Assembly (NCBI RefSeq): GCF_013394655.1
Contig: NZ_CP053351.1
Span: forward strand, 4,256,001-4,320,000
Direction of reading: 5' to 3'
DNA from: Winogradskyella schleiferi
GTDB taxonomy: Bacteria; Bacteroidota; Bacteroidia; Flavobacteriales; Flavobacteriaceae
Length of the DNA: 64,000 bases
A program made the translations under genes and the position numbers. The notes under the pieces were generated by a model. That model had not been told where the DNA came from. It saw nothing but the letters and a program-made list of their open reading frames with translations, and did no database searches. How positions within the stretch are numbered: the stretch's first letter is position 1; each line of letters starts with the position of its first letter. Below are positions 52,892 to 61,986 of the stretch, one piece after another.

Positions 52892-53455
52892 TTATTTTTC
52901 TTCAGTAGTTTCTTCTGCTGTTTCTTCTTCAGTTTTGGCTTCCTTTCCACTATAAGATTCGTTTATGGCTTCAATAACACCTTCCGTGATGTCATTGGCT
53001 TCGTTTCCATATACAACACTTCCTGCTTGGTTTTTACCAAGAATAAAGGTATAACCGTTCTTTTTGCCGTAATCTTCAACGAATTTGTTCATTTTCGAAA
53101 TTACAGAATCCATTTCCGTAGTGAACATTTGTTCCATTTGCTGTTGTTGCATTTGCATTTGTTGCTGCACAGGTTGCCATTTTTGTGAAAAGGCTTGGGA
53201 TTCTTCCTGTTGTTTCTGTGGCGACATTGTGGCTAATCGTTGTTGTATAGACTGCATTTCCATTTGATATGTTTTAGCAATACTGTCACGTTGTTTTGAA
53301 AAATTTTCATTTTGGGTTTTAAACTTATCCTCAATGTCAATTTTCATTTGATAATCGTTAATTACTTTTCCATTATCAATAAATGCGATTTTTTCTTGTT
53401 CTTGGCAAGATGCTGCAAAAATCAAAACAGCTAAACTTAAAATTATTTTCTTCAT
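52892..53455 (-). CDS. OmpH/Skp-like lipoprotein
   Basis: 187 residues. Lipobox IFAASC (Cys17), IAFIDNGKVINDYQMK at the start of the OmpH domain, a long coiled coil very rich in Q and M (about 65-110), and an acidic T/E tail. Skp-type proteins are periplasmic chaperones for outer-membrane proteins; here the lipid anchor is a difference from the soluble enterobacterial form. It is read convergent to the delta' gene. A -7 box (TACATTTG on minus, 53478-53485) lies 23 nt upstream. Confidence 0.85.
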   Translation of the reverse strand: MKKIILSLAVLIFAASCQEQEKIAFIDNGKVINDYQMKIDIEDKFKTQNENFSKQRDSIAKTYQMEMQSIQQRLATMSPQKQQEESQAFSQKWQPVQQQMQMQQQQMEQMFTTEMDSVISKMNKFVEDYGKKNGYTFILGKNQAGSVVYGNEANDITEGVIEAINESYSGKEAKTEEETAEETTEEK

Positions 53456-55104: not shown

Positions 55105-55120
55105 TGTTTCACGTGGAACT
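55105..55120. other. parS: parS-like site 1
   Basis: TGTTTCACGTGGAACT matches the near-universal ParB binding site (TGTTNCACGTGAAACA) at 14 of 16 positions including the CACGTG core. Two further sites at 55271 and 57213 support it. It is in the gap between a small membrane protein gene and mnmG. Confidence 0.7.
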
Positions 55121-55138
55121 ATACGTTATAATTCTAAT

Positions 55139-55251
55139 AACACCCCTAAAGTCCCCTCAAGGGGGACAATTTACGGATTGAAAATAACGTTTTCAGATAT
55201 ACGTCTTTTGTTTAAAAAAATTAAAATCACTGAGGGGACTTTAGGGGTGTT
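55139..55251. repeat. 113-bp fold-back with perfect 21-bp arms
   Basis: Arms 55139-55159 (AACACCCC...CCCCTCA) and 55231-55251 (TGAGGGG...GGGGTGTT) are exact reverse complements; the 71-nt centre is AT-rich. The left arm also holds a smaller hairpin (GTCCCC / GGGGAC, 55151-55167). The unit sits between two parS-like sites and has no reading frame. Confidence 0.88.
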
Positions 55252-55270
55252 TTTCATGAATTGTACTAAT

Positions 55271-55286
55271 TGTTTCACGTGGAACA
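55271..55286. other. parS: parS-like site 2
   Basis: TGTTTCACGTGGAACA, CACGTG core with GTTYC / GGAAC arms, 15 of 16 matches to the general parS consensus. It lies 151 bp after site 1, downstream of the mnmG stop. Confidence 0.75.
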
Positions 55287-55306
55287 TTCATTTATTTATT
55301 TCCGAA

Positions 55307-55326
55307 ATTACAGCTATCGCAGGAAT
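55307..55326. repeat. dispersed stop-codon hairpin, degenerate copy 5
   Basis: ATTACAGCTATCGCAGGAAT, one arm identical to the perfect copies. It directly abuts the mnmG stop codon (55327). Confidence 0.6.
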
Positions 55327-57198
55327 TTAACGTCCTAAATAAACCAATAAAACAGAAATATCGTTAGGATTGACACCACTAATTCTAGACGCCTGTGAAA
55401 TAGTTACGGGCTGAATCTTACTCAATTTTTGCCGAGCCTCAATACTCATTGATTTTAGTTTCGAATAATCAAAATCAGCAGGAATCTTTAAATTTTCAAG
55501 CCTATTTAATTTATCCGCATTATTCTTTTCCTTTTCTATATATCCGGAATATTTGACTTGTATTTCTGTTTGCTCTATAACTTCGGTATCTAAATCATGT
55601 TCTTGAATATAGGACTCAACTGCATCAAATTTACGTACATCATCAATCGTAATATTTGGTCTCGCATACAACTTAAACATTTTGTCTTGCTGTTTTACAG
55701 GTGCCGAATTCTTTGATTCCAACACAGGATTAGCCTCTTCAGGCGTCACACTCGTATCTCTAAAAAATTGCACAAATGCCACGGACTTGGATTCCTTTTC
55801 TTCCATTCGTTTCAAACGTTTTTCAGAAGCTAACCCCAATTTATAACCTTTAGGTGTTAACCTAAAATCAGCATTATCTTGTCTTAAAAGTGTTCTATAC
55901 TCTGCACGAGATGTAAACATTCTATAAGGTTCTTCAGTTCCTTTGGTTATTAAATCATCGATCAAAACACCTATATAGGCTTCATCTCTTTGTAACGTAA
56001 ACGCATCCTTCTCTTGCACTTTTAAGCTGGCGTTTATTCCTGCCATTAAACCTTGGGACGCTGCTTCCTCATATCCTGTGGTTCCATTAATTTGTCCAGC
56101 GAAATATAAACCCTCGACAAGTTTAGTCTCTAAGGTGTGTTTCAATTGTGTTGGTGGAAAATAATCATACTCAATAGCATAACCCGGTCTGAAGAATTTT
56201 ACTTTTTCAAAGCCAACGACAGAACGCAACGCTTTAAATTGAACATCTTCTGGCAACGATGTGGAAAACCCATTAATATAATACTCACAGGTATTCCAAC
56301 CTTCGGGCTCTACGAATAATTGATGCCTATCTTTATCCGCAAATCGATTTATCTTATCTTCAATAGATGGACAATAACGCGGTCCCACACTTTTAATTCT
56401 TCCATTAAACATTGGCGAACGGTCGAAACCTTCACGCAACAAATCATGAACTAATTCACTCGTGTAAGACATGTGACACGACCGTTGTTCTTTTAGTGGT
56501 TTTGTAGTATCTAAATAAGAAAACTTTTCAGGATTTTCATCACCTGGCTGTTCTATCATCTTAGAAAAGTCCAGAGAACGACCATCAACTCTTGGCGGTG
56601 TTCCAGTTTTCATTCTTCCAGATTCAAAACCTAAATTCACCAGTTGTTCAGTGATACCAGTTGCAGCTCTTTCGCCTGCTCTTCCTCCGCCGAAATTTTT
56701 GTCTCCAATATGAATTAACCCATTCAAAAATGTTCCGTTTGTTAATACAACACTCTTTCCTTTAACCTCGACTCCAAGTGACGTTTTTACGCCGACTACT
56801 TTATGATTCTTAACTAATAGACCCGATACCATCTCTTGATAAAAATCAAGATTCTCAGTGCCTTCCAAAAGTAGTCGCCAATCTTCAGCAAAACGCATTC
56901 TGTCAGATTGAACTCTTGGACTCCACATCGCAGGACCTTTAGATTTGTTAAGCATCTTAAATTGAATAGCCGAAGTATCAGAAACAATGCCACTATAACC
57001 ACCAAGCGCATCAATCTCTCTTACAATTTGCCCTTTGGCAATTCCTCCCATAGCTGGATTGCACGACATTTGGGCAATATTTTGAAGGTTCATTGTAATT
57101 AACAACGTCTTACTTCCCATATTCGCAGCGGCAGCAGCAGCTTCACTTCCTGCATGGCCAGCTCCTACAACTATAACATCATAAACATCATTAAACAT
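55327..57198 (-). CDS. mnmG: tRNA uridine-5-carboxymethylaminomethyl synthesis enzyme MnmG
   Basis: 623 residues. FAD loop VVGAGHAGSEAAAAAANMG (12-30), the SCNPAMGGIAKGQIVREIDA motif, RVDGRSLDFSKM region and the C-terminal helical domain (SMSIEARQKLSKIQPVTISQ, then ASRISGVNPNDISVLL) are all typical. With MnmE it modifies U34 of several tRNAs. Formerly gidA, this gene lies near the origin in many bacteria. Three parS-like sites flank it: one 15 bp upstream of its ATG and two downstream. Confidence 0.97.
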   Translation of the reverse strand: MFNDVYDVIVVGAGHAGSEAAAAAANMGSKTLLITMNLQNIAQMSCNPAMGGIAKGQIVREIDALGGYSGIVSDTSAIQFKMLNKSKGPAMWSPRVQSDRMRFAEDWRLLLEGTENLDFYQEMVSGLLVKNHKVVGVKTSLGVEVKGKSVVLTNGTFLNGLIHIGDKNFGGGRAGERAATGITEQLVNLGFESGRMKTGTPPRVDGRSLDFSKMIEQPGDENPEKFSYLDTTKPLKEQRSCHMSYTSELVHDLLREGFDRSPMFNGRIKSVGPRYCPSIEDKINRFADKDRHQLFVEPEGWNTCEYYINGFSTSLPEDVQFKALRSVVGFEKVKFFRPGYAIEYDYFPPTQLKHTLETKLVEGLYFAGQINGTTGYEEAASQGLMAGINASLKVQEKDAFTLQRDEAYIGVLIDDLITKGTEEPYRMFTSRAEYRTLLRQDNADFRLTPKGYKLGLASEKRLKRMEEKESKSVAFVQFFRDTSVTPEEANPVLESKNSAPVKQQDKMFKLYARPNITIDDVRKFDAVESYIQEHDLDTEVIEQTEIQVKYSGYIEKEKNNADKLNRLENLKIPADFDYSKLKSMSIEARQKLSKIQPVTISQASRISGVNPNDISVLLVYLGR

Positions 57199-57212
57199 AT
57201 AGTAATTCTTTT

Positions 57213-57228
57213 TGTTCCACGTGGAACA
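57213..57228. other. parS: parS-like site 3, perfect palindrome
   Basis: TGTTCCACGTGGAACA is a perfect 16-bp palindrome and a known form of parS (as in Caulobacter). It lies 15 bp upstream of the mnmG start codon, so ParB binding there could also touch the mnmG promoter. Confidence 0.85.
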
Positions 57229-57338: not shown

Positions 57339-57752
57339 CTATAAATTTCGTTTTGCTAGATAGTAATCTTCTTTTGAACGCATCAACTTTGCCTCATCTT
57401 CAGACTTATCCTTATAACCACAATAATGCAGAATACCATGAATCATAACTCTTGTCATTTCATTTTCAAAAGACACCTCAAAATCAGAAGCATTTTCCTT
57501 CACTCTATCTACCGAAATATAAATTTCACCATGTAGCTCCTTTCCTACTGAATAGTCAAAGCTAATAATGTCCGTCAACGTATCATGATTTAAGAAATCG
57601 ACATTCAATTGATGTAGATAATTATCTGAACAAAAAATGTAATCAATATCGCCTACTTTACAATTTTCCTCTAAAATAGTTTCTGTTATCCAATCGGAAA
57701 TCTGCATCTCCTGTTCTAAACTAAAATCGGTTTCGTAGTTAAAACTAATCAT
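57339..57752 (-). CDS. ybeY: rRNA maturation endoribonuclease YbeY
   Basis: 137 residues, ATG start overlapping the DUF4175 stop by 8 bp. The motif is VMIHGILHYCGYKDKSEDEA. The family zinc site is H-x3-H-x5-H; here the third ligand position is Asp (HGILH YCGYK D), so the site reads H-H-D. The remaining fold elements (DIISFDYS, LHGEIYISVDRV) are intact. The enzyme acts in 16S rRNA 3'-end maturation and ribosome quality control. It lies in one operon with DUF4175. Confidence 0.9.
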   Translation of the reverse strand: MISFNYETDFSLEQEMQISDWITETILEENCKVGDIDYIFCSDNYLHQLNVDFLNHDTLTDIISFDYSVGKELHGEIYISVDRVKENASDFEVSFENEMTRVMIHGILHYCGYKDKSEDEAKLMRSKEDYYLAKRNL

Positions 57753-61314: not shown

Positions 61315-61423
61315 TTAATATTTTTCTTTTCTTTTTTCTCTGTTAATTTTATTCGTTTATTCTTATTGTTTATATATGTTCTCATAATGTGCTTAGCAAT
61401 TGCCTTGATGCTAAACGAACCAA

Positions 61424-61443
61424 CCTGCCTGCCGGCAGGCAGG
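61424..61443. repeat. 20-bp GC-rich perfect palindrome
   Basis: CCTGCCTGCCGGCAGGCAGG, perfectly self-complementary, in AT-rich surroundings. Such CTGCCGGCAG elements occur in other flavobacterial intergenic regions; only one copy is seen here. Confidence 0.75.
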
Positions 61444-61938
61444 AAAATCAAAACGATTTGTTAGGAAATTACTCATTTATTCCTATTGTTTTAATTTTGT
61501 TTTCGTGAATGTTGCACATTTGCAAGCATCATTCGCTGATACATTAATAATTCTATTTCCTTATATAATCTAGTGTTCCAATTCTAGATTTCATAAATTA
61601 ACTCTATTTATGGTTCATTATTTCTGAAAATCGTTGAGTCCGACTTTGTCGGAACTTTTGTACTTTACAATCTTTTGATATTCGTTTTATGAGATTGTAC
61701 GTTAATTATAATTTTTCTAACATTGCTTCCTCTAGGGTTTCATTGTTTGTATCTCAAGACTAATAGCTAATACATCACTCAACAGTCAACACTTACTAAC
61801 CGTCTAATCTACGATTTTATTTTATATGCAATTTCGTTAAAATTGGTAAGATTCTGTTAATTTAGAGGTCTAAGGTGTTAAATTGGGTTGAAATATTTAG
61901 CATTTTGAGTTTTAACGATTAAAAGAACTAAAGTCTAT

Positions 61939-61965
61939 GACGTTTTGACTGCGCTCAGAATGACA
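61939..61965. repeat. dispersed intergenic repeat ending CTCAGAATGACA, copy 2
   Basis: Shares its second half with copies at 24226-24253 and 63226-63251. It lies 22 nt upstream of the alkB start. Confidence 0.5.
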
Positions 61966-61986
61966 TTTAGTACAACAATTTAATGC

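Follow-up and report, generated by a model that had tools for sequence, protein, structure and literature searches.

Three 16-bp palindromes that lie within 2.1 kb of one another on the two sides of mnmG (gidA) in the Winogradskyella schleiferi chromosome are very probably chromosomal parS sites, i.e. centromere-like sites of the origin region onto which ParB is predicted to load; judging from the sequence, we place the probability of this reading at about 0.88. The element is of a known kind, chromosomal parS; its bracketing of mnmG was not found described in the open-access literature, and by sequence comparison across the phylum the parS-mnmG layout appears to be old.

Three parS-like sites around mnmG

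The window, i.e. the whole 64-kb stretch of DNA analyzed here, corresponds to positions 4256001-4320000 of a closed one-contig chromosome of 4,560,973 bp. Its relevant features, in window coordinates and with the number of matches among 80 named loci, are:

52892..53455, minus strand: OmpH-like gene, neighbour; tblastn match in 41/80 named loci and in L119
53666..54526, minus strand: methyltransferase gene, common neighbour; Pfam Methyltransf_23; tblastn match in 75/80 named loci and in L119
55105..55120, plus strand: predicted parS site 1, TGTTTCACGTGGAACT; core exact, last outer base deviates
55139..55159, plus strand: left arm (21 bp) of an inverted repeat between predicted parS sites 1 and 2
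55231..55251, minus strand: right arm (21 bp) of the same inverted repeat
55271..55286, plus strand: predicted parS site 2, TGTTTCACGTGGAACA; downstream of the mnmG stop
55327..57198, minus strand: mnmG (gidA), tRNA-modification gene between the sites; Pfam GIDA, E=1e-161; TIGR00136, 1.3e-255
57213..57228, plus strand: predicted parS site 3, TGTTCCACGTGGAACA; upstream of the mnmG start, 14 bp spacer
57339..57752, minus strand: ybeY, common neighbour across mnmG from the methyltransferase gene; Pfam YbeY; tblastn match in 77/80 named loci

A location near the origin is the rule for parS, and the ParB site consensus is given as TGTTTCACGTGAAACA (PMC7383237, as far as its text was available). When the three sites are compared with TGTTNCACGTGNAACA, two are exact and one has a single outer mismatch to the 16-bp ParB consensus. 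An earlier note on this DNA had reported 16-mers of this type at 55105, 55271 and 57213, and all three are present there, at 4.311-4.313 Mb of the chromosome; site 3 lies 5' of the mnmG start, and sites 2 and 1 lie 3' of the mnmG stop. The note's further remark that it noticed no other such site in the 64 kb is borne out at 0-1 mismatch, and the genome-wide mismatch search that it proposed confines matches at this level to a single stretch: chromosome-wide, the only places with 0-1 mismatch to TGTTNCACGTGNAACA are these three, all inside 2.1 kb. With up to two mismatches allowed, the chromosome contains 23 places, vs 11 for a reversed control pattern, and the other 20 are scattered and carry 2 mismatches each. 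With up to three, the window contains 7 matches (shuffle mean 2.78; 3 of 100 shuffles reach 7), of which the four remaining ones all carry 3 mismatches. The exact 14-bp core GTTYCACGTGRAAC occurs in 3 copies in the genome and its reversed control in 0; no exact core was present in 1.56 Mb of stretches outside the site clusters of three genomes.

The sites are surrounded by the core genes pgk, mnmG and ybeY, and the mnmG product shares 95% identity with its counterpart from Winogradskyella eckloniae, the closest match among the 80 named loci in a comparison that may omit entries from the window's own genome. Between sites 1 and 2, the arms of the 21-bp inverted repeat are perfect and lie 71 bp apart; it was considered as a dispersed repeat and rejected, as no second copy occurs in 864 kb of the genome read. 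A named relative (L282) carries the short motif CCTAAAG in both orientations in this region.

Recurrence of the layout across Bacteroidota

The exact 16-mer TGTTYCACGTGRAACA is found in 135 of 149 Flavobacteriaceae genomes, at 1-3 copies each; the reversed control is found in none of the 149. An mnmG match is present in 148 of these genomes, and all 148 were examined, 108 as sequence and 40 by coordinates, with the result that parS lies within 600 bp of mnmG in 146. Among the 108 loci read as sequence, the exact 14-bp core lies no more than 600 bp from mnmG in 107, and in 105 both flanks carry a core (up to 1 mismatch); two of the three others are cut by contig ends, and the third, G103, has none near mnmG, though one 16-mer occurs elsewhere in its genome. 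The exact 16-mer lies within 600 bp in 39 of the 40 genomes examined by coordinates, the exception being G017. For the 80 named loci (core with up to 1 mismatch, 600 bp), an upstream site is present in 78, a downstream site in 76, both in 75 and neither in 1, i.e. 79 have a site beside mnmG. The proximity of the sites to mnmG noticed earlier can be refined: in almost all of the Flavobacteriaceae genomes examined, parS stands on both sides of the gene. Four Winogradskyella-labelled loci (L229, L231, L233 and L282) lack a second downstream site within 600 bp.

Phylum-wide, 184 of 198 genomes contain the exact core and 9 contain its reversed control. We read 64 mnmG loci at this level, a non-random set composed of the 30 top-scoring mnmG loci, one of which is from the window's family, and of 34 loci picked across families that purposely include site-less genomes and genomes with known displaced sites; the exact core is within 600 bp in 51, and the remaining 13 comprise 6 with one-mismatch cores only and 7 without any. 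Beyond Flavobacteriaceae, 31 Bacteroidota families were considered (f4 by coordinates; f7, f21, f23, f26, f30, f32 and f35 are left out of this count), and 26 of them include one or more genomes with the exact core no further than 600 bp from mnmG. The families lacking an exact core near mnmG are f5, f17, f38 and f39, and f10 has a one-mismatch core. Sites on a single flank are frequent outside Flavobacteriaceae. Upstream of mnmG, Flavobacterium-type loci (L248, L249, L254, L255 and L258) have arrays of 4-12 parS-like sites, counted at up to 1 mismatch; many of these sites are 40-60 bp apart.

There are also genomes in which mnmG and parS are apart. In G017, mnmG is itself site-free and lies 278 kb from the parS sites, which still accompany two genes that neighbour mnmG in the window, those for the OmpH-like protein and the methyltransferase. 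The mnmG-parS distance is 118 kb in G317, 27 kb in G305 and 12-18 kb in G318, and the two are on separate contigs in G161 and G251. The two annotated genomes of family f5 (L204 and L206) have parS adjoining threonine-synthesis genes (threonine synthase) and not mnmG. The separations in G017, f5, G305 and G318 indicate that the parS sites are not part of mnmG. One single-contig genome, G099, has neither an mnmG match nor an exact site; it has one core with 1 mismatch and keeps dnaA and parB.

Replication origin, dnaA and the ParABS proteins

Raw GC skew proved a misleading guide to the origin since it tracks gene strand in this genome; we therefore used per-gene third-codon-position (GC3) skew with fitted strand and replichore terms, on a sample of 611 genes (864 kb in all) drawn from the window and from 40 stretches of 20 kb each. 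The best fit places the origin at 4.32 Mb and the terminus nearly opposite, at about 2.0 Mb. A thinned set of 410 genes gives an origin at 4.32-4.34 Mb, and none of 100 permutations of stretch positions matches this fit; the residual sum (RSS) of the thinned set is 853 if the origin is placed at parS, 1026 if it is placed at dnaA and 1036 when replichores are left out, and the coarse permutation grid has its optimum, 831, at 4.41 Mb. Bootstrapping puts the medians at 4.32 Mb; the thinned set shows a broad lower tail (5% quantile 0.28 Mb, 25% 4.12 Mb). In G062 the origin is fitted at 1.04 Mb (bootstrap 0.99-1.38 Mb), with mnmG at 1.006 Mb and dnaA at the first bases; 5 of 100 permutations match this result. 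The residual sum there is 518 for an origin at mnmG, 544 for one at dnaA and 546 without replichores. In G017 the fit falls at 0.90-0.94 Mb, near the parS cluster at 0.997 Mb, and 67 of 100 permutations match it. The skew signal is clear in the Winogradskyella schleiferi genome only, being weak in G062 and non-significant in G017.

A candidate oriC is the AT-rich gap before rpiB (chromosome 4335200-4335720; 18.7% GC over 300 bp), which holds DnaA-box-like repeats, five of them YTATYAACA. The 500-bp segment richest in TTATNNACA among the 864 kb read is at 4335247, with 4 boxes vs 3 in the next segments; it lies 15 kb past the right end of the window, at a distance of 22.0 kb from site 3. Of YTATYAACA, 5 of the 26 copies in 344 kb fall within about 400 bp at 4335247-4335700, the motif having been picked after reading the region. 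Shuffled sequence also gives clusters of three or four relaxed boxes. The repeat cluster at 4.3352-4.3357 Mb is in our view suggestive of an oriC, and a candidate for one. Six other loci with an rpiB match were compared, and in five (L302, L300, L296, L306 and L202) the densest TTATNNACA segment, with 2-4 boxes, is just upstream of rpiB. As a general oriC marker rpiB fails in G017, the sixth of these, which has no boxes upstream of this gene; the densest segment of G017, at about 991.5 kb, holds 6 boxes (at most 3 elsewhere in the 400 kb read) and lies between rpsU and rnr, about 5 kb from the parS sites. A 9-box segment lies about 2 kb from mnmG in G328, from another family, and no box cluster is present in the 400 kb read of G062. 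Of 120 loci read around mnmG or parS, only 4 reach at least 4 TTATNNACA per 500 bp, so an oriC of this look is probably not within about 4 kb in most genomes. No TTATNNACA occurs in the 4.4 kb read at the dnaA locus. The perfect DnaA box TTATCCACA is not enriched (71 genomic places vs 126 for the control) and was dropped as an oriC locator, having yielded no cluster; a 672-bp gap at window positions 61315-61986 was likewise rejected as oriC, being absent from the segments richest in TTATNNACA.

The dnaA gene is at 1399018-1400412 of the chromosome, 1.65 Mb from the sites. Its distance from mnmG is at least 0.79 Mb in all 29 single-contig genomes with both matches, corresponding to 0.197-0.47 of the chromosome (median 0.338; many of the lengths used are rounded). 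The median dnaA position in these 29 genomes is about two thirds of the path from mnmG to the opposite chromosomal point, and several single-contig genomes start at dnaA, with mnmG and parS roughly one third of the chromosome away. In the 16 genomes checked for parB, drawn from the same 29, this gene is always at least 0.59 Mb from mnmG.

Proximity of parAB to parS is usual, not defining. Here the adjacent parA and parB genes are found near 2.73 Mb, at a distance of 1.58 Mb from the sites, and the gene for ParA (255 aa) is directly upstream of parB, forming an operon. The 301-aa ParB has ParB_N and HTH_ParB domains (TIGR00180, 1.1e-48) and a GERRFRA stretch, which we take to be the CTPase motif; the nearest solved structures are ParB and Spo0J chains. 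Caulobacter ParB contacts parS through Q162, G170, K171, S172, R173, N178, G201 and R204, and R173 and G201 are described as conserved across ParB and altered in Noc (PMC7383237, available text). Counted by hand in an ungapped register, 7 of these 8 residues are shared by the ParB found here, with K in place of S172, and by the same hand numbering it has both equivalents of R173 and G201, the pair marking parS specificity. No canonical SMC passed TIGR02168 (SMC_prok_B), the only model used, the best score being 42.7 bits vs a cut-off of 567.35, so the usual SMC-loading role of ParB-parS may not apply. The best match to the SMC model in the genome is a Wadjet-like jetC beside jetD (L309, about 3136200-3140400).

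These results bear on the earlier note's proposal that this is the chromosomal centromere region, with the origin within tens of kb. The proposal gains support from the rarity of the sites, a parB gene with the R/G residue pair and the skew origin: the latter, at 4.32 Mb, is close to sites at 4.311-4.313 Mb, the oriC-like cluster is 22 kb away, and the skew analysis that the note had called for, run on sampled stretches, shows the cluster of sites lying next to a skew switch at about 4.32 Mb. The note had regarded the lack of a parB gene as evidence against its reading; one was found, with parS-type residues. It had correctly found neither dnaA nor parAB in the window, and both are encoded elsewhere in the genome, each about 1.6 Mb from the sites, a refinement of its reading.

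For ParB binding, sliding and segregation at the sites, we infer the following course from established ParABS systems of other bacteria. Replication would start nearby, and ParB supplied from the distant parAB operon would soon dock on the sites beside mnmG and close as a CTP-dependent sliding clamp; the clamps would spread across the surrounding DNA, mnmG included, and ParA would pull the ParB-loaded DNA apart, with the two new origin regions separating first. ParB sliding clamps that work with ParA have been described (PMC7614844, available text).

Alternative readings and known systems

Since the sites are near the start and stop of mnmG, often within about 30 bp, and each palindrome can be written as a short hairpin, they might be operators of an mnmG regulator, or RNA hairpins at transcript ends, unrelated to segregation. 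We regard this as quite improbable: where mnmG is displaced it lacks a site and the sites are still clustered (G017, G317, G305, G318, G161 and G251), the site sequence is the ParB consensus, and the 12 site-like copies (up to 1 mismatch) upstream of mnmG at the Flavobacterium locus L248 would be odd for an operator. A second ParB-family match above the cut-off in this genome, a 616-aa open frame at 80.9 kb, might suggest that a mobile element or this other ParB-like protein, and not the chromosomal ParABS, is what the sites serve. This is scarcely credible given that the sites lie among the core genes pgk, mnmG and ybeY and recur across the phylum, and that the same model gives a single match, to an open frame about 300 aa long, in 15 of 16 other Flavobacteriaceae genomes, the sixteenth (G099) having a second match that is sub-threshold.

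A further reading accepts the sites as parS and adds that flanking ParB tunes mnmG transcription, coupling tRNA modification to origin state. It is encouraged by the position of site 3 just before the start codon, by the occupation of both flanks in 105 of the 108 Flavobacteriaceae loci read, and by gidA also flanking the E. coli origin (PMC4446571, available text). Against it, lineages without the linkage retain both parts, and the two gaps may just be free space beside a gene; we consider such tuning unlikely. Equally doubtful is the broader proposal that in Bacteroidota parS-mnmG-parS and a nearby oriC form one ancestral unit that would have been held intact as dnaA and parAB ended up at distant late-replicating places, and in which ParB clamps on the two sides would enclose and tune mnmG without a canonical SMC.

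Read as chromosomal parS, the sites beside mnmG offer a simple marker of the origin region for a large phylum, whose genomes, as far as met here, have a weak GC skew and a dnaA gene remote from the origin. They also define an exact 2-kb stretch to examine for ParB binding, plus a candidate oriC, and they pose the question of why so many lineages have retained parS on either side of a single tRNA-modification gene. An earlier survey of parS sites is reportedly that of Livny 2007; a description of mnmG bracketed by parS was not found in the open-access literature searched. To our knowledge, E. coli has no chromosomal parS system.

The E. coli chromosome is alike in that mnmG/gidA adjoins the origin (PMC4446571, available text). 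There is also a likeness to the gut Bacteroidetes studied by Hi-C, which belong to the same phylum and in which parS clusters mark ori, and ori is not systematically correlated with dnaA; the available part of that study reports no known condensin homolog in either of the two Bacteroidetes it covers (PMC10197239). It differs from the present work in covering twelve genomes, without a phylum survey, and the part of its text that was available mentions gidA/mnmG 0 times (PMC10197239). Set against the chromosomal ParABS of other bacteria, the system described here has parAB 1.58 Mb off, sites that hug mnmG and no SMC over the cut-off of the one model used; it shares with them a 16-bp palindrome, few and origin-proximal copies, and a cognate ParA with a parS-type ParB (PMC7383237, available text).
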